Virus record (IMG/VR): IMGVR_UViG_3300042898_000759
Coordinates: 1 to 30,453 of that record
DNA from: a virus
Strand: one strand, 5' to 3'
Length of the DNA: 30,453 bases
Positions within the stretch are counted from its first letter, which is position 1. Every line of letters begins with the position of its first letter. Of the stretch, positions 1,489 through 30,178 are shown piece by piece. The notes beneath the pieces were generated by a model that saw only the letters and a list, made by a program, of their open reading frames with translations, was not told where the DNA came from and did not search any database. The translations under genes were made by a program, and so were the position numbers.

Positions 1489-1497
1489 GATAAATAA
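1489..1497 (+). promoter_or_regulatory. T4-type late promoter upstream of gp13
   Basis: GATAAATAA contains the ATAAATA core (1490-1496) of the T4 late promoter, which is read by RNA polymerase carrying the gp55 sigma-like factor. Taking +1 six bases after the last A gives about 1502, just before TAAGGA and the ATG at 1516. It recurs, nearly identical, before most structural genes of the window. Confidence 0.75.
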
Positions 1498-2494: not shown

Positions 2495-3130
2495 ATGATA
2501 ATAGGAATTACAGGTCTCATCGGTAGCGGCAAAGATACAGCCGCTGACTATCTTTGCACATTTCACGGCTTCAAGCGCATGAGCTTCGCCGGTACACTTA
2601 AGGATGCTGTTGCAGTTATCTTTAACTGGGACCGCGAACTTCTTGAAGGCTCAACTAAGGCTAGCCGTGAATGGCGAGAAGAAGTTGATACTTGGTGGGC
2701 AGAACGATTGGGCATCCCCAATCTGACTCCCCGTTGGGTGTTGCAGCAGTGGGGAACAGATGTCGCCCGCAAGAGTTTTCATAATGACATTTGGGTAGCA
2801 AGCGTAGAGAATCGTTTGCAGGGCATCAAGGATGATATCGTAATCACTGATTGCCGCTTTGCTAATGAAGTTCACGCTATCAAGAATGCAGGCGGCATCA
2901 CACTTAGGACTCATCGCGGTGAGGATCCTTACTGGTTGCCAGTAGCTGTAAATCACAATAAAGAACTTGACACCGACATGAAGGATGTGCTGCGGAATCT
3001 ACTTGAGAATGAATATAAAGTTCACGCCAGCGAATATAGTAGCGTTGGTTTAGATTATGACCATCACATCGATAACAACGGAACGATTGACTATCTACAT
3101 ACTCAGATAGAATCAATAATCAACCGTTAA
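2495..3130 (+). CDS. gp1: Deoxynucleoside monophosphate kinase (T4 gp1-like)
   Basis: 211 residues, P-loop kinase. The Walker A loop starts almost at the N-terminus: G7-LIGSGKDT-15 with K13. Downstream features of phage dNMP kinases are FAGTLKDAV (about residue 31), WVLQQWGTDVAR (about 81-92) and a Walker B-like DDIVITDCRFANE (about 112-124). T4 gp1 (241 aa) phosphorylates dTMP, dGMP and hydroxymethyl-dCMP with ATP to feed dNTP synthesis. The start at 2495 is fixed by the P-loop and by the promoter immediately upstream. No Shine-Dalgarno is visible and the predicted +1 is the ATG, so the mRNA may be leaderless. The gene has its own promoter and terminator and sits among late structural genes. 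Its 3' end overlaps a convergent gene by 18 bases. Function is fairly certain, substrate range is not. Confidence 0.85.
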   Translation: MIIGITGLIGSGKDTAADYLCTFHGFKRMSFAGTLKDAVAVIFNWDRELLEGSTKASREWREEVDTWWAERLGIPNLTPRWVLQQWGTDVARKSFHNDIWVASVENRLQGIKDDIVITDCRFANEVHAIKNAGGITLRTHRGEDPYWLPVAVNHNKELDTDMKDVLRNLLENEYKVHASEYSSVGLDYDHHIDNNGTIDYLHTQIESIINR

Positions 3131-3463
3131 GTCACCTCGTTTCCAAGTGACTTCTTTTTTCTTGACTACTTCAACACAGTTGAGGCAAATGGTTCGTAAA
3201 TTGTTAAACGCCACATTAGTCAGATTACCGTCAATGTGAAAGACGGTCATTTGACTAGGATATAAACTTTTGAAGCCGCACAAGTCACAGTGTGGCTTTT
3301 TTTTGTATCCAGCCTTCTCCCAACTGTGTGATTGAGGTTTCTTTTTAGCCCGCTTCTTCCCGCAGCTATCGCATATACTTCGGTAATAGGTTTTACCTTT
3401 TCGGATATAGTTTATAGCTGAAAAGTTTCTATTACATTCTTTACACATGGGTCTTTTGATCAT
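3113..3463 (-). CDS. HNH endonuclease-like zinc-binding protein
   Basis: 116 residues and the only convincing minus-strand gene. It has paired cysteines C7/C10 and C31/C34, then C59-DL-C62, F-H76-I-D78-G-N80, N88-LR and C93-LN-C96. This is the layout of a zinc-ribbon HNH domain, in which the HxD/N...N...C cluster binds the metal and cuts DNA. Free-standing proteins with this architecture (GKTYYRS, CDSC, CxxCGF, HIDGN) are common in marine T4-like phages, function unproven. It may be a homing-type nuclease or a DNA-processing enzyme. The first histidine of a classic HH/HN motif (H76) is present, but activity is not assured. It is convergent with the kinase gene, overlapping by 18 bases. A late-type box lies on the minus strand exactly 5 bases before the ATG, so the message may lack a leader; the nearest AAAGG is too far away to be an RBS. 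Confidence 0.75.
   Translation of the reverse strand: MIKRPMCKECNRNFSAINYIRKGKTYYRSICDSCGKKRAKKKPQSHSWEKAGYKKKPHCDLCGFKSLYPSQMTVFHIDGNLTNVAFNNLRTICLNCVEVVKKKEVTWKRGDLTVDY
3129..3160 (+). terminator. Rho-independent terminator of the dNMP kinase transcript
   Basis: AAGTCAC (3129-3135) pairs perfectly with GTGACTT (3147-3153) across an 11-base loop, followed by CTTTTTT (3154-3160). It begins at the kinase stop codon and lies wholly inside the 3' end of the opposing HNH gene, whose Lys codons supply the T-run on the plus strand. Confidence 0.75.
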
Positions 3464-3467
3464 ATGA

Positions 3468-3477
3468 TTATTTATTC
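3468..3477 (-). promoter_or_regulatory. Late-type promoter for the minus-strand HNH gene
   Basis: On the minus strand the sequence reads GAATAAATAATCATATG, with the ATAAATA core at 3475-3469. Five bases separate the core from the ATG (3463), putting the expected +1 on the start codon. The box diverges from the sheath promoter about 50 bases away. Confidence 0.65.
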
Positions 3478-3524
3478 ATTTTTACCTTTAAAGGTCAGCT
3501 AATCCGGTGTTTTTAATAATATAC

Positions 3525-3534
3525 AATAAATAAC
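3525..3534 (+). promoter_or_regulatory. Late promoter for the tail sheath gene
   Basis: AATAAATAAC with the ATAAATA core at 3526-3532. The predicted +1 is near 3538, giving a leader of about 65 bases before the ATG at 3603. This is the longest predicted leader in the window. It contains an imperfect hairpin (TGTG-AC-AGGT / ACCTCACA, about 3559-3581) before the AAAGGA RBS. Confidence 0.7.
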
Positions 3535-7289: not shown

Positions 7290-7298
7290 GATAAATAC
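7290..7298 (+). promoter_or_regulatory. Late promoter for the tail tube gene
   Basis: GATAAATAC, core 7291-7297, expected +1 about 7303. It is followed by the RBS CAGGAG (7305-7310), 8 bases before the gp19 ATG at 7319. Confidence 0.75.
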
Positions 7299-7984: not shown

Positions 7985-9685
7985 ATGTCACTAGGTAACT
8001 GGGCACAAAATTTCTTAAAAGACGCTGCCGGAGCCTTCTTCGGCAGCGACTACCTTAGAGACTACACCCATGCTTCTAAAACCTTTAGAACAAACAGCTA
8101 TCAAAACACACCTAAACTAAAGTTTCTATTTCATACATACTTTGAAACTAATGCACAAGCATTTCCTAACAATTTCAACTATGGTTTATTAGTAAAAGAT
8201 GTAAAACTTCCTTCGTTTAGTTTTGCTACCCACCAAATGAACCAGTATAATAGAAAACGCATTACTCAATCTAAAATTAAGTACGAAGCAGTAGACATAA
8301 CTTTTCACGATGATAACAACGACTCCGTAAATTATCTTTGGAATAACTATTATCAATATTATTATAATGATGGAAGTAAACCTCAAAACATTTTGCAAGG
8401 TTTTAGAGGTACAACCTTAGGCGAATCGTTAAATTATGATGTTCCGCCATCACAGCAATATAATGATAGAAATATATATGAAGACTCTATAAGTGGAGAT
8501 AGTGATTGGGGATTCAATGGCGGGCAAACGGATTCTGCTACTGGAAAAAAAGTTGCATTCTTTAAGAATATAACAGTATTTGGTTTTAACCAACATAACT
8601 TCACTGCTTATACATTTGTTAATCCAGTAATCACTAACTTTAACCATGACACATACAACTATGAAGATGGTAACGGTGTCATGCAAAATAAAATGACTAT
8701 CGACTATGAAACTGTAGTTTACAATTATGGTAAAATGGATGGTAGAAAACCAGGAGACATTGTTACTGGATTCGGCGATGTTGCTACCTACGATAGAAAT
8801 ACAAGTCCAATCGCTCAGCCCGGAGCCAATGGTACGGTACTTGGTCAAGGCGGATTGGTAGATGCAGCCGGCGGCACCTTAAGAGCTTTGGGAGACGGAG
8901 ATATACTAAGCGCAGTTAAGACTGCTGGCACCTTATATAACACAACTAAAAATTTAAATCTAAAGAATGTAGCAACAGCAGAATTAAATGCTATGCTTCG
9001 TAACGCTATTCAAAATACACCCAACACAAGAAATTCATTGTTTAATTTTCCTAAAGCTGGGGCAAGTCCTGGACCAATTGGTACTGCTGCTTTCCCTACA
9101 ATCGGCGCACGATTAAGCCCGCCTGTGATTTCAGACATAGGTACAGCGGGCAATCAATACAACGGCGCAGATAAAACAGGTGATACTCCTAAGGAACAAT
9201 CAGGTGGGGGAAATCTACCTATCTCAGAAATTTATTTGCAAGCCCTTGAAAGCAGCGGTGTTGTATCGGATGGGGGTCCATCCGATGCAGAGCTTGAAGC
9301 AATAGTTGACGCTTTTAACCGGGAACAGGAAGCCGAATTGCTTGCATCTCTAAGATCACTTGATGATCCGTTTGAAGAAGATTACAAAATCAAGAAAGGT
9401 GATAACCTTACTAAGATTGCAAAGGCAAATGGCACTACTGTACAAGCATTGCTCAAAGAAAATCCAAACATTAAGAATCCAAACTTGATTTATGCTGGAG
9501 AAACTATTAAGATTCCTACTAACAAAACTCCTACTGTATTGCCTAAACCTAACAATACTGACAAAGAAGCTTTCGATCAAGATGAGTTTGATACAGAGTT
9601 TGATAATGATTTTACAGTACAAAACGCACTGTATACCCCTGAGCCTGACGATCCCTTTGATGATAATGATCCAATCTTTACATAA
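7985..9685 (+). CDS. Tail-tube-like protein with C-terminal LysM domain (gp54/gp53-like baseplate candidate)
   Basis: 566 residues, AT-rich, RBS AAGGA 9 nt before the ATG, 15 nt after gp19. The N-terminal region (about 40-130) repeats the gp19 layout: [10 protein letters not shown], then [20 protein letters not shown], then [20 protein letters not shown]4 has two such tube paralogues, gp48 and gp54, which start the tube on the baseplate. Residues about 467-511 ([20 protein letters not shown]...[10 protein letters not shown]) are a full LysM domain, a peptidoglycan-binding fold that in T4 sits on the baseplate wedge protein gp53. A Gly/Pro/Thr-rich linker precedes it and an acidic Asp/Phe-rich tail follows. 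The best guess is a baseplate/tube-initiator protein with cell-wall contact; the exact T4 counterpart is unresolved. Confidence 0.7.
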
Positions 9686-9696
9686 GAATAAATAAC
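9686..9696 (+). promoter_or_regulatory. Late promoter directly abutting the 118-aa gene
   Basis: GAATAAATAAC immediately after the upstream stop codon (9683-9685), core 9688-9694. Exactly five bases separate the core from the ATG at 9700, so the expected +1 is the start codon. No Shine-Dalgarno can be seen. Confidence 0.65.
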
Positions 9697-9699
9697 TGT

Positions 9700-10056
9700 A
9701 TGTTCACAACTTCACAAGACTCAACTGACAAAACAGTAAGAATTTTCGATAACTTTTACACAACCCAGCTTGTTGTGAATGGTAGCGACTACGATGTTAT
9801 ATTTTCTTTCTTTAAAGGTGTAACCGAAAACACAAAAATTGCAGGAAACTTTACTGCTTTGTTATTTAGGATTGCTCAAGAAGGCGGCTATAATATTATG
9901 TCATTGTTGGATGTTCTTAAGGGTACTGAAAATAACTTACAACTTACCCAAGTAATGGCTTACTATCTCAACACTTTCAAAAGTAAAACCTCACTATACG
10001 GCATCGGCATGCTGCCAAAACCAAATGAAGCAGTGCAGAGAAACGTAGTTCTTTGA
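9700..10056 (+). CDS. Conserved small virion-associated protein (unknown function)
   Basis: 118 residues. The pattern RIFDNFYTTQLVVNGSDYDV, FFKGVTENTKIAGNFTALLF, MAYYLNTFKSKTSLYGIG and the ending PNEAVQRNVVL matches a small conserved protein that I associate with structural gene clusters of marine T4-like phages. It has no named T4 equivalent that I can assign. No enzymatic motif or membrane segment is seen; it appears as a compact alpha/beta protein. It is the first gene of an operon with gp4 (1-nt gap) and the glycosyltransferase-like gene. Its ATG coincides with the predicted late start site, so it may be translated from a leaderless message. A structural role is inferred from context only. 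Confidence 0.7.
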   Translation: MFTTSQDSTDKTVRIFDNFYTTQLVVNGSDYDVIFSFFKGVTENTKIAGNFTALLFRIAQEGGYNIMSLLDVLKGTENNLQLTQVMAYYLNTFKSKTSLYGIGMLPKPNEAVQRNVVL

Positions 10057-10057
10057 C

Positions 10058-10492
10058 ATGGGTAAATGGGCACAGGGGAAATATACTCCTAAAAATCCTC
10101 AAAAATATATAGGAAAGATTACCCCAACTTATCGCTCTGGATGGGAACTGACTTTCATGACCTTTTGCGATAGTAATGATAACATAATTTATTGGGCAAG
10201 TGAGTCACTGAGGATTCCGTACAAGCATCCGTTCACTGGGAAATCTACTATCTATGTACCCGATTTTCTTGTAGTGTATGAAAACAAAAATAGAATGAAG
10301 ATCGCAGAAGTTGTTGAGATAAAACCTAAAAAACAAAGTATCATTGAAAGTAAGGTCGCTAGTGCCAAAGATAGAATGGTGGTAGCAATCAATCACGCAA
10401 AATGGATAGCTGCTACTGCATATTGTAAGAGTCAAGGCATGGCATTCCGAGTAATAACTGAAGATGATATATTCAGAAACGGAGGAAAGTAA
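10058..10492 (+). CDS. gp4: Head completion protein gp4 (nuclease-like)
   Basis: 144 residues, close to T4 gp4 (150 aa). It shares the T4 pattern at several points: KYTPKNPQKYIGK near the start, TYRSGWE (24-30), IIYWASESLRIPY (43-55), VPDF (67-70), VEIKPKK (86-92), AKWIAATAYCKSQGMAFRVITED near the end. E30, D69 and E87-x-K89 have the spacing of a PD-(D/E)xK-type nuclease centre. gp4 is needed to finish packaged heads before tails attach; a cut at or protection of the DNA end has been suggested for T4. The start codon lies 1 nt after the previous stop with no clear RBS, so coupling is likely. The next gene overlaps by one base. Confidence 0.87.
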   Translation: MGKWAQGKYTPKNPQKYIGKITPTYRSGWELTFMTFCDSNDNIIYWASESLRIPYKHPFTGKSTIYVPDFLVVYENKNRMKIAEVVEIKPKKQSIIESKVASAKDRMVVAINHAKWIAATAYCKSQGMAFRVITEDDIFRNGGK

Positions 10493-11652
10493 TGTCCATA
10501 TATGTCCTCGGTACTTACCATCATCACATTAATCATGAATTATTTGAAACTGAACTAGTGAACTGCGAGGTTACTGTTTTTGATTGGGAAAAAGAAGAAC
10601 TTACTGAGAACAGTTTAATAATATCAGATCCTAGTTGGATTAACCTACAGCATTTGACTGAATCCCAGATTGAACAAGCTAAAAATATAGCAAACAAAAA
10701 AATGCTGTTAATATTTGATTACAAATCATTTTACTCTAAAAGCCAAATGATTAGTCAAGTTAATGAAGCCTTATTGAAAATGAATTTCAACCTTTCAAAT
10801 GTGCATATAATAACACAACTAGAATATGACATTCAAGCTATTAAGCGTATTATGCCTCAGGTAAATGTAGTGAGCAGAGACCGATGGCTTAAAGAGTTGT
10901 TTAGAGTGCAGATCATTTCGCATTCCTTTGAAAAAAGAGTAGAGTTAGATACTACCGAGATCGTTAATAAAAGATTTTCTTTATTCATACGGAGGCATCA
11001 GAAAGCTAGATTTGAATTTTTATGTAGTTTGATTGCAGCAGGGTTGGAACCGCAGCTTCATTACACTTTTGCTAATACCGAATCTGACATGCTACCTGAA
11101 TCATTTAAAGAAATGATTCCTGAACGACTTTCTCACGCTAGACATATACTAGATCCATGGGTAGAAGGAATACCTTACACTATACCTAATGAACAATATA
11201 GTCATGTGCATTATCCTATGACATTAGGACATTACTGCGAAAAATCAGATATTAATATAGTATTTGAGACAGAACCATTTGGTGAACACTCTGTCTATTC
11301 TTATCAAGGATTTGGTAGTTTCTTAACGGAAAAAACATATAAAGCTATTCTGTTTAAAAAACCATTCATCATTGTGACTGAACAGCATGGCCTAAAAGCA
11401 TTACAAGCATTTGGCTTCAAGACCTTTAGTCCCTGGTTTGATGAATCATATGATGATATCGAAGATTTTGAACAACGAGTAGAAGCAATATTAGCAGAAA
11501 TTAATAGATTGAGCTTACTATCCGAAGATGAAATGGCTACAATTCTACGAGAAGTCAATGATATTATAGAGCATAATCACCGGGTGTTATTTGATTTAGC
11601 AGTTGCACCTTTACCTGAACAGTTCAAGCTCAAATCTCTTTTAACTTTTTAG
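10492..11652 (+). CDS. Glycosyltransferase-like protein
   Basis: 386 residues, strongly A+T-rich and AAA-rich for Lys. The C-terminal part, from about residue 277, reads FLTEKTYKAILFKKPFIIV, then LKALQAFGFKTFSPWFDESYDDI. A '(V/L)TEK-(F/Y)-K' segment followed by a hydrophobic strand is how the donor-binding half of several GT-B enzymes (fucosyltransferase- and exostosin-like families) looks, and phage proteins with this ending are usually listed as putative glycosyltransferases. The N-terminal half resembles a Rossmann-like domain without a recognisable motif. The RBS GGAGG (10481-10485) is strong, and the ATG overlaps the gp4 stop (TAATG). Substrate and target are unknown: a virion protein, phage DNA or host glycan are all possible. 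Family assignment is tentative. Confidence 0.5.
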   Translation: MSIYVLGTYHHHINHELFETELVNCEVTVFDWEKEELTENSLIISDPSWINLQHLTESQIEQAKNIANKKMLLIFDYKSFYSKSQMISQVNEALLKMNFNLSNVHIITQLEYDIQAIKRIMPQVNVVSRDRWLKELFRVQIISHSFEKRVELDTTEIVNKRFSLFIRRHQKARFEFLCSLIAAGLEPQLHYTFANTESDMLPESFKEMIPERLSHARHILDPWVEGIPYTIPNEQYSHVHYPMTLGHYCEKSDINIVFETEPFGEHSVYSYQGFGSFLTEKTYKAILFKKPFIIVTEQHGLKALQAFGFKTFSPWFDESYDDIEDFEQRVEAILAEINRLSLLSEDEMATILREVNDIIEHNHRVLFDLAVAPLPEQFKLKSLLTF

Positions 11653-11665
11653 AATGGGCGTAGTT

Positions 11666-11674
11666 GATAAATAC
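11666..11674 (+). promoter_or_regulatory. Late promoter abutting the gp16-like gene
   Basis: GATAAATAC, core 11667-11673. Five bases separate the core from the ATG at 11679, which is thus the expected +1. No Shine-Dalgarno is visible between the preceding stop (11652) and this ATG. Confidence 0.7.
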
Positions 11675-11678
11675 TTAC

Positions 11679-12158
11679 ATGACAAAGAAACTAGAAGAAC
11701 TTTTTGATTTAGCATCATCCGAAGACAATGATCTTACTATTCCATTGCCTGAAGTCACTGAAGAAGTTACTGAAAATGCATTAAACACATTAGACAAGAT
11801 TGAAGCAGCATTGCCTATGGTAAAAGGCCTGGAAGCTGCTGACAATGAGATGGATGAACTCGCTGAGATGGCTACTTCAAGTTATAAAGACTTGATGGAT
11901 TTGGGTATGCAGGTAGAATCACGCTTTAGTTCTGAAATCTTCAATAGTGCAAGTAGTATGCTAGGACACGCTATTACTGCGAAGACAGCAAAGATTAACA
12001 AAAAACTTAAGATGCTCGACCTACAAATGAAGAAAGCACAGCTTGATCAAAAGATGTTGGCAAAAACTGAGGAGATTGAAAATACTCCATTAGGAACAGG
12101 CCAATCACTAGATCGCAATGAACTTCTTAAGATGTTCAACACTAAAAACAACGATTAA
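11679..12158 (+). CDS. gp16: Terminase small subunit candidate (gp16-like)
   Basis: 159 residues from the ATG at 11679 (MTKKLEELFDLAS). The TTG at 11664 in the same frame is rejected because it lies inside the promoter box. It is nearly all helical: an acidic N-terminus, then EMDELAEMATSSYKDLMDLG, SSEIFNSASSMLGHAITAKT and a basic coiled coil (KINKKLKMLDLQMKKAQLDQ), ending LDRNELLKMF. This order (helix, 'DLMDLG', 'IF..A..ML', coiled coil) is what I recall for small terminase proteins of marine T4-like phages; T4 gp16 has 164 residues. The small subunit forms a ring that recognises DNA for packaging by gp17, which is not in this window. The neighbouring gp4 and internal head genes suit a packaging role. 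Another helical head protein remains possible. Confidence 0.6.
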   Translation: MTKKLEELFDLASSEDNDLTIPLPEVTEEVTENALNTLDKIEAALPMVKGLEAADNEMDELAEMATSSYKDLMDLGMQVESRFSSEIFNSASSMLGHAITAKTAKINKKLKMLDLQMKKAQLDQKMLAKTEEIENTPLGTGQSLDRNELLKMFNTKNND

Positions 12159-12159
12159 A

Positions 12160-12168
12160 GATAAATAC
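12160..12168 (+). promoter_or_regulatory. Late promoter for the internal head protein genes
   Basis: GATAAATAC, core 12161-12167, starting two bases after the gp16-like stop. Expected +1 is about 12173. RBS AAGGA (12184-12188) precedes the ATG at 12195. Confidence 0.75.
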
Positions 12169-12194: not shown

Positions 12195-12815
12195 ATGCGC
12201 AGTTTAAAACAATACATTGTTGAAAGTGTACACACTTATAATTACACTATTAAGGTCGCTGGTCAGGTAGATAAGAACTTCCTTGACATGTTCAAATTTA
12301 ACTTAAAGAAGTTTGATCCTATCAAGATTTCTGATCCGGTTTCTACTCCTATTCAGAAAAGCCCATATGGTTTTCCTGATTTAGAAAACGAGCCAGTTCA
12401 CATCATTAAAGCAGAGTTTCGCTATCCTGCTACTGAACCAATGATTCAGCAAATTGCACAATTACTAGGATACAATGTTAACATGGTTCGTGTTGTCAGC
12501 ACGAACTTTGATGATAGCATCAATAGCGAGAGCGAAGCTTATGCTAACGAAGCAAGTCACAGTCCTGTACTAGATCATACTGAACTTGAAGAACAGCCCG
12601 GAGCTAAAGAAGCTGCTAAGGCATACGGTAATAGCTATCTTGACAGCATCAAAGACCAAATGAAAGACAATACAATTGATATTCCTTACGAAGGTAAGAA
12701 GACTCCAAATGCATTTGATCCCTTCAAACCAGAAACACAAATGGCATCAATGGGTAAGGACAGTCCTATGAGTAAGATTACTCGTCCTGCAAAGCCTCAG
12801 ACAGGTAGAGGATAA
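12195..12815 (+). CDS. Conserved phage protein, probable internal head protein with capsid-targeting N-terminus
   Basis: 206 residues. The N-terminus MRSLKQYIVE-S ends in I-V-E before Ser11, which fits the T4 prohead protease (gp21) rule of Ile/Leu-x-Glu followed by a small residue. It has the same length and shape as the 10-residue capsid-targeting sequence of T4 internal proteins (MKTYQEFIAE-A). Residues about 15-100 form an alpha/beta domain (YNYTIKVAGQVDKNF, TPIQKSPYGFPDLENEPVHI, FRYPATEPMIQQIAQLLG) resembling conserved marine T4-like phage proteins of unknown function. The C-terminal half is polar and probably flexible. It shares a late promoter with the 1011-aa gene 4 bases downstream. 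Packaging inside the prohead is inferred from the cleavage-site match. Confidence 0.6.
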   Translation: MRSLKQYIVESVHTYNYTIKVAGQVDKNFLDMFKFNLKKFDPIKISDPVSTPIQKSPYGFPDLENEPVHIIKAEFRYPATEPMIQQIAQLLGYNVNMVRVVSTNFDDSINSESEAYANEASHSPVLDHTELEEQPGAKEAAKAYGNSYLDSIKDQMKDNTIDIPYEGKKTPNAFDPFKPETQMASMGKDSPMSKITRPAKPQTGRG

Positions 12816-15934: not shown

Positions 15935-15943
15935 GATAAATAC
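15935..15943 (+). promoter_or_regulatory. Late promoter for the giant fibre operon
   Basis: GATAAATAC, core 15936-15942, expected +1 about 15948. It stands between the terminator and the fibre gene, so the fibre, small basic protein, endolysin and Ig-like protein probably depend on it. Confidence 0.75.
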
Positions 15944-29763: not shown

Positions 29764-29772
29764 TATAAATAC
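29764..29772 (+). promoter_or_regulatory. Consensus T4 late promoter
   Basis: TATAAATAC, the exact T4 late octamer (29764-29771). The predicted +1 near 29777 is at the start of GAAGGAG (29777-29783), the RBS for the ATG at 29792. Confidence 0.8.
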
Positions 29773-29791: not shown

Positions 29792-30178
29792 ATGGGAATT
29801 TATAGAACAGCGCAAGGCAAAAGATTAGATATGTCTATCCTTGCTAGAAAAAATGAGCGTACCAGAGCAGTAGGAAATATGAGCGTCAATGCTCGTGGTG
29901 ATACTATTGACAGTCAGGGGAGAATTATTGTTCCTGTCACTAAAAAGGTAGGGGACAAGTATCAACGGACTGTCTCTAATAGAGCAGCAGCCTTATCAAA
30001 GCGCAAAGAAGATTTGATGCAGCCGATTGAAACTGTTGCTTCGCCGGAAAGTAAAATCGATATCACAGAAGAACTGGAGCTTCTTGCAGAAGAACTAGAA
30101 ATCGATGAGCTTGCTGAATTTGAAGTAGAAATCGAAGAAATTAAAAAAGCAGAATTAGAGAAATCCAAGAAAAGCTAA
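29792..30178 (+). CDS. Conserved phage protein with acidic coiled-coil tail
   Basis: 128 residues. The first 70 (MGIYRTAQGKRLDMSILARK, AVGNMSVNARGDTIDSQGRI) match a small conserved protein of marine T4-like phages with the hallmark 'VGN..VNARGD'. The rest is a strongly acidic helix rich in Glu/Leu (ELELLAEELEIDELAEFEVE) with a Lys-rich end. There is no known function; the family is often found near structural genes, so a virion or assembly role is plausible. It has the best late promoter and RBS in the window (GAAGGAG, 8-base spacing), so high late expression is expected. The co-chaperonin gene begins one base after its stop. Confidence 0.72.
   Translation: MGIYRTAQGKRLDMSILARKNERTRAVGNMSVNARGDTIDSQGRIIVPVTKKVGDKYQRTVSNRAAALSKRKEDLMQPIETVASPESKIDITEELELLAEELEIDELAEFEVEIEEIKKAELEKSKKS

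Follow-up and report, generated by a model that had tools for sequence, protein, structure and literature searches.

Late-promoter boxes set four to five bases before the start codon point to leaderless late mRNAs in lineages of T4-like aquatic phages

We identified, in a 30,453-base IMG/VR virus record (a fragment, called the window below) and in the genomes of its relatives, a class of late genes in which the sequence ATAAATA lies only four or five bases before the ATG. We consider it likely, with a probability of roughly 0.86, that these close boxes are T4-type late promoters fused to the start codon, which would give leaderless late mRNAs; this reading draws on sequence patterns and on analogy with T4. 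The window carries T4-like structural genes, namely a gp13-like adaptor, the tail tube, the gp4 head closure and a sheath homologue, and a nucleotide search of the window region against named phages gave no match. Three ATAAATA-N5-ATG sites had been claimed in a preliminary description, and all of them are present, on both strands, at 9688-9702 (+), 11667-11681 (+) and 3461-3475 (-), while a control scan of the window with the reversed pattern returned no site. The total number of ATAAATA in the window is at the chance level (9 found versus 9.5 expected); it is the placement of the motif, not its frequency, that is the special feature of the window. Eight boxes lie at most 60 bases from the ATG of a called gene, three of them at exactly 5 and the rest at 19-27. 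No usable Shine-Dalgarno (SD) sequence was found at the three close-box genes, in agreement with the preliminary description, the sole SD-like 4-mer by a close box being a TAAG that is located 13 bases before 9700 and overlaps the stop codon of the preceding gene. The SDs attributed to the longer-leader late genes, namely gp13, gp19 and those at 12195 and 29792, were likewise recovered (Table 1). On the other hand, the earlier name 'gp16-like' for the gene at 11679 is unconfirmed, as the gene matches only a PHROG without known function.

Table 1. Coordinates of late boxes and associated genes in the window, and of the HTVC008M gene starts that agree with the pattern
Feature	Position	Strand	Remark
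Late-promoter box ATAAATA	3469..3475	-	5 bases before ATG at 3463
116-aa HNH-type gene, predicted leaderless	3113..3463	-	weak PHROG 10822 match
Late-promoter box ATAAATA	9688..9694	+	5 bases before ATG of 118-aa gene
118-aa gene, predicted leaderless	9700..10056	+	
Late-promoter box ATAAATA	11667..11673	+	5 bases before ATG at 11679
159-aa gene, predicted leaderless	11679..12158	+	PHROG 16202
Late box, leadered class	1490..1496	+	gp13-like gene, AAGGAAA
Late box, leadered class	7291..7297	+	gp19 tail tube gene, CAGGAGAA
Late box, leadered class	12161..12167	+	gene at 12195, CAAGGAT
Late box, leadered class	15936..15942	+	large gene, ATG about 23 bases downstream, AATAGGTGA
Late box, leadered class	29765..29771	+	gene at 29792, GAAGGAGT
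Divergent late box, long leader	3526..3532	+	faces tail sheath gene
HTVC008M RefSeq starts agreeing with the pattern	6280, 7562, 16007 (-), 18916 (-), 19456		

Two late boxes at 3461-3532 point apart, one towards the HNH gene (-) and the other towards the sheath gene (+); most relatives retain the close box of the former. The sheath gene is listed from GTG 3567, and its true start is probably ATG 3603, which is preceded by AAGGAAAA and would have a leader of about 65 nt; the spacing of this gene is also long in relatives (mostly 51-55 bases), unlike that of the other late genes here. We also noted a 566-aa protein, encoded at 7985-9685 of the window, whose N-terminal part resembles a tail tube and whose C-terminal stretch matches endolysin/transglycosylase families.

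As three sites in one window are weak evidence alone, the relatives are decisive. A first histogram was computed for about 160 loci of relatives identified through gp4 and the 159-aa protein, the distance being measured from ATAAATA to the first ATG opening a frame of at least 40 codons. The histogram is bimodal, with 103 boxes at 4-5, 208 at 18-22 and only 31 across the ten bins 6-15, and control heptamers give no such distribution unless they overlap the box or carry a single mismatch to it. The long genomes of relatives show two peaks, a sharp one at 4-5 and another at 16-26, with almost no boxes in the interval 6-15 between them. In the two that were taken in full, G001 (335 kb) and G002 (349 kb), 22/71 and 28/88 genic boxes are found at 4-5, respectively (binomial p among distances 0-15, 9e-14 and 7e-18). 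Twenty permuted heptamers of five A and two T are flat, without a peak at 4-5, and no heptamer occurs more often than ATAAATA at this position before candidate starts, where it outnumbers the SD motif AGGAGAA (50 versus 22). Raw pattern counts in 15 relatives amount to 146 at 4-5 versus 24 at 9-10, sums that are not fully independent, with G006 seeming to repeat part of G001; the one-mismatch boxes CTAAATA and TTAAATA add a little at 4-5. The peak at 5 anticipated by the preliminary description thus exists in the relatives as well as in a distant second lineage, but it stands at 4 and 5, not at 5 alone. One might attribute such a peak to chance or to the common ancestry of a few loci, as the window has only three sites and the loci of the first histogram are largely orthologues of the same few genes. 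However, the exact-5 class of that histogram covers 13 protein clusters, the peak recurs within single genomes across dozens of unrelated genes, and the distant marine lineage has it with different genes. The whole-genome counts already refute this explanation, to which we assign practically no probability.

At least two distant groups have the close-box trait, and the genes that carry it differ between them. In the freshwater group (G001, G002, G003 and the window) 62/205 genic boxes are at 4-5, including 9/38 in G003, and in the marine Pelagibacter/Methylophilales group the figure is 25/109, with 8/21 in HTVC008M, 6/33 in Mosig, 3/29 in Melnitz and 8/26 in the uncultured relative G016. At the loci around relatives of HTVC008M gp2, 17/28 boxes are at 5. 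In Salicola phage SCTP-2, of which 398 kb out of 440 kb were read, the count is 7/102, each of the seven at exactly 5 (p 3e-5). The share of genic boxes fused to the start codon in the carriers therefore ranges from 7 to 38%, and it is roughly one quarter in several groups. No genic box at 4-5 was seen in T4 (0/31), KVP40 (0/24), Syn9 (0/18) or Atu_ph07 (0/49; 398 kb of 490 kb read), hence the trait is neither T4's nor universal. Raw counts are at background level in P-SSM2, S-PM2, S-CRM01, Cr30, BUCT-ZZ01, C48C1, Moby, Aeh1, phiM12 and AG-345-L05, and the numbers in PA5oct (2/39 boxes at 4-5) and P-TIM68 (2/31) are too small to call.

The two classes of boxes differ sharply in their SDs. SD-like matches precede 6/62 genes of the 4-5 class versus 50/74 of the 16-26 class in the freshwater group (Fisher 2e-12), 4/25 versus 29/32 in the marine group, and 0/7 of the close class versus 26/31 of the leadered class in SCTP-2; the match rate before internal ATGs is about 20%. 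The start codons at 4-5 in G001 and G002 together are 47 ATG, 0 GTG and 0 TTG, and leaderless mRNAs and leaderless initiation are known to prefer AUG (PMC9031893). The base before the ATG is T in 36/50 close-box cases, so that T followed by ATG fits the pyrimidine-purine (T-A) step of a putative transcription start site. At box+4/+5, genes of the leadered class preferentially have T followed by A. The composition after the ATG shows no clear difference between the close-box and leadered classes.

We then considered the orthologues of the 118-aa, 159-aa, HNH and gp19 genes, which were taken whether or not a box was present. Among 95 orthologues of the 118-aa gene, 36 have a box at 4-5 (31 with the exact box) and 13 have one at 16-26, of which 11 have an SD; this family is mixed, with no box within 60 bases in 42. 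Among 94 orthologues of the 159-aa gene, 31 have an exact and 42 a one-mismatch box at 4-5, and the 6 with a box at 16-26 all have an SD. The SDs of the longer-leader members of both families include CAGGAGG, CTACGGAG and TAGGA. HNH orthologues have a box (exact or with one mismatch) at 4-5 in 41/46 cases, and gp19 orthologues have one at 16-26 in 76/97, with an SD in 76/76 of these. The 118-aa and 159-aa orthologues thus alternate between two states, one with the box at 4-5 and no SD, the other with the box at 16-21 and in most cases an SD. A related observation concerns a 386-aa gene, which follows gp4 directly in the window (10492-11652) and whose G001 homologue is located elsewhere (46382-47524) with its own box at 5; it has possibly moved from an operon to a putatively leaderless promoter.

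If the start codons were misassigned, transcription would begin at or inside the ATG and the true start would be a downstream codon with its own SD, a possibility to which the variable first codons (N-termini) of the 118-aa and HNH families lend some appeal. In the 159-aa family, however, changes in codons 2-12 fall far less often on positions 1-2 than on position 3, even in the codons next to the ATG, and this protein-level conservation identifies the ATG as the true start. Furthermore, the longer-leader orthologues use this same ATG, preceded by an SD, and the RefSeq gene starts of HTVC008M agree independently with the predicted ATGs for gp2, the tape measure, the baseplate tube cap, CsgF and the 2OG-oxygenase (Table 1). 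Misassignment is therefore very improbable.

We infer the position of the transcription start from T4, in which the late octamer spans positions -13 to -6 relative to the start (PMC1524935) and the late promoter element is located about one helical turn upstream of it (PMC2988020). With the octamer in this position, a spacing of N5 would make the A of the ATG +1, and boxes at 4-5 would give leaderless late mRNAs. In the proposed mechanism, the host RNA polymerase, equipped with a gp55-like late sigma, would open at ATAAATA (-12 to -6) and begin transcription at, or at most one base from, the A of the ATG, and the ribosome would bind the 5'-terminal AUG of the leader-free mRNA by leaderless initiation, a mode of translation that we infer from the missing leader. 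One promoter motif would thereby serve two arrangements, either at 4-5 without an SD or at about 16-26, where the leader would be roughly 11-21 nt with just room for an SD. Spacings of 6-15 would correspond to leaders too short for an SD, and their rarity agrees with the leaderless reading. It has to be counted against this reading that a spacing of 4 requires a start one base closer to the box than in T4. The leaderless mRNAs proposed in the preliminary description are nonetheless supported by the peak at 4-5, the absence of SDs, the exclusive use of ATG, the valley at 6-15 and the switching of orthologues, with the start position taken by analogy from T4.

Several close-box genes lie shortly behind another gene on the same strand and may therefore also be carried on read-through mRNA. 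Taken further, the box could be a promoter while translation proceeds mainly from longer read-through transcripts, with the AU-rich stretch as a ribosome site that lacks both structure and an SD, and with a secondary role for the 5-base spacing. An upstream same-strand stop is indeed found within 100 bases for 13/22 (G001) and 15/28 (G002) genes of the 4-5 class, and both plus-strand genes of the window stand closely behind a late gene. We nevertheless regard this explanation as unlikely, because other heptamers of equal A/T content have no peak, AU-richness leaves the two-base spacing window and the scarcity of boxes at 6-15 unexplained, and many close-box genes, including the divergent minus-strand HNH gene, have no same-strand gene nearby upstream.

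The exact ATAAATA core is enriched before gene starts at two fixed spacings, as for a T4-type late promoter. The late system of T4 (gp55/gp33/gp45; TATAAATA) is similar in its core box, in its leadered class with an SD at 16-26, and in gp55: the gp55-like sigma of G002 matches PHROG 12791 (late sigma) with an E-value of 1.6e-70, and homologues are also found in HTVC008M, Mosig, Melnitz, G016, SCTP-2 and PA5oct. It differs in that T4, KVP40 and Syn9 lack the fused genic boxes of the carriers. The gp55 profile search gave no match in G001, perhaps through contig incompleteness, nor in the partial records G003-G005, and no late sigma was seen within the 30-kb window itself. Apart from members of the profiles themselves, only the marine phages yielded clearly recognisable gp45 and gp33 homologues.

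As for possible partner genes, none of bS21, IF3 and initiator tRNA is decisive. No IF3 gene was found in G001, G002, HTVC008M or SCTP-2, and the IF3 homologue carriers CBB, Atu_ph07, 2.275.O, Phosso and XaC1 have no or few close boxes (small numbers from related genomes); seven other phages without IF3 likewise have none or few, and the absence of IF3 is only suggestive as a correlate. An initiator-like phage tRNA occurs in G002, G003 and SCTP-2, yet also in PA5oct and Atu_ph07, and is absent from G001 and the marine group; we rejected it as a correlate. tRNA-Met genes with the 1-72 mismatch, an initiator mark, are located at 201328-201402 (G002), 1419-1497 (G003), 298006-298081 (SCTP-2) and 270167-270243 (PA5oct). 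bS21 was rejected as a sufficient partner as well, being present in G001, G002, HTVC008M and SCTP-2, yet also in PA5oct, Atu_ph07, 2.275.O and Phosso, where close boxes are few or absent. ARAGORN detected tmRNA genes in HTVC008M, Mosig, Melnitz, G016 and G002.

In Mycobacteria and other bacteria, leaderless genes are recognised by a -10 box located a few bases before the ATG, but their promoters are of the host sigma70 type, whereas the motif here is that of a phage late sigma. Among phages, leaderless middle and late mRNAs have been described in the Thermus phage phiYS40 (PMC3594737), and lambda cI and other single leaderless mRNAs start at AUG (PMC9031893). The late phage mRNAs predicted here from sequence would lack a leader as in phiYS40; however, altered IF2 and IF3 levels were reported there, while here leaderless and SD-led genes would stand under one T4-type motif, and lambda cI is a single gene as opposed to a genome-wide class of late genes. 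We found no report of leaderless mRNAs from T4-type late promoters in the open-access literature; given the known phiYS40 and lambda cI cases, it is the T4-type late-promoter variant that would be new. Late-promoter prediction failed in a survey of pelagimyophages (PMC7029224), and many of their late promoters may stand flush with the start codon, where searches tuned to the T4 spacing may miss them.

We lean slightly towards a wider interpretation, in which T4-like aquatic phages have a genome-wide, lineage-specific dual late programme, with one motif, leaderless and SD-led modes and orthologues switching between them, perhaps allowing some late proteins to be produced when the state of the ribosomes or initiation factors is unlike that of early infection. 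The close box offers a simple signature for late genes of such phages, which start-site predictors relying on SDs can misplace, and the natural pairs of leaderless and leadered orthologues would be usable for studies of initiation. Leaderless translation would thereby extend to structural genes of abundant T4-like phages, including those of SAR11.
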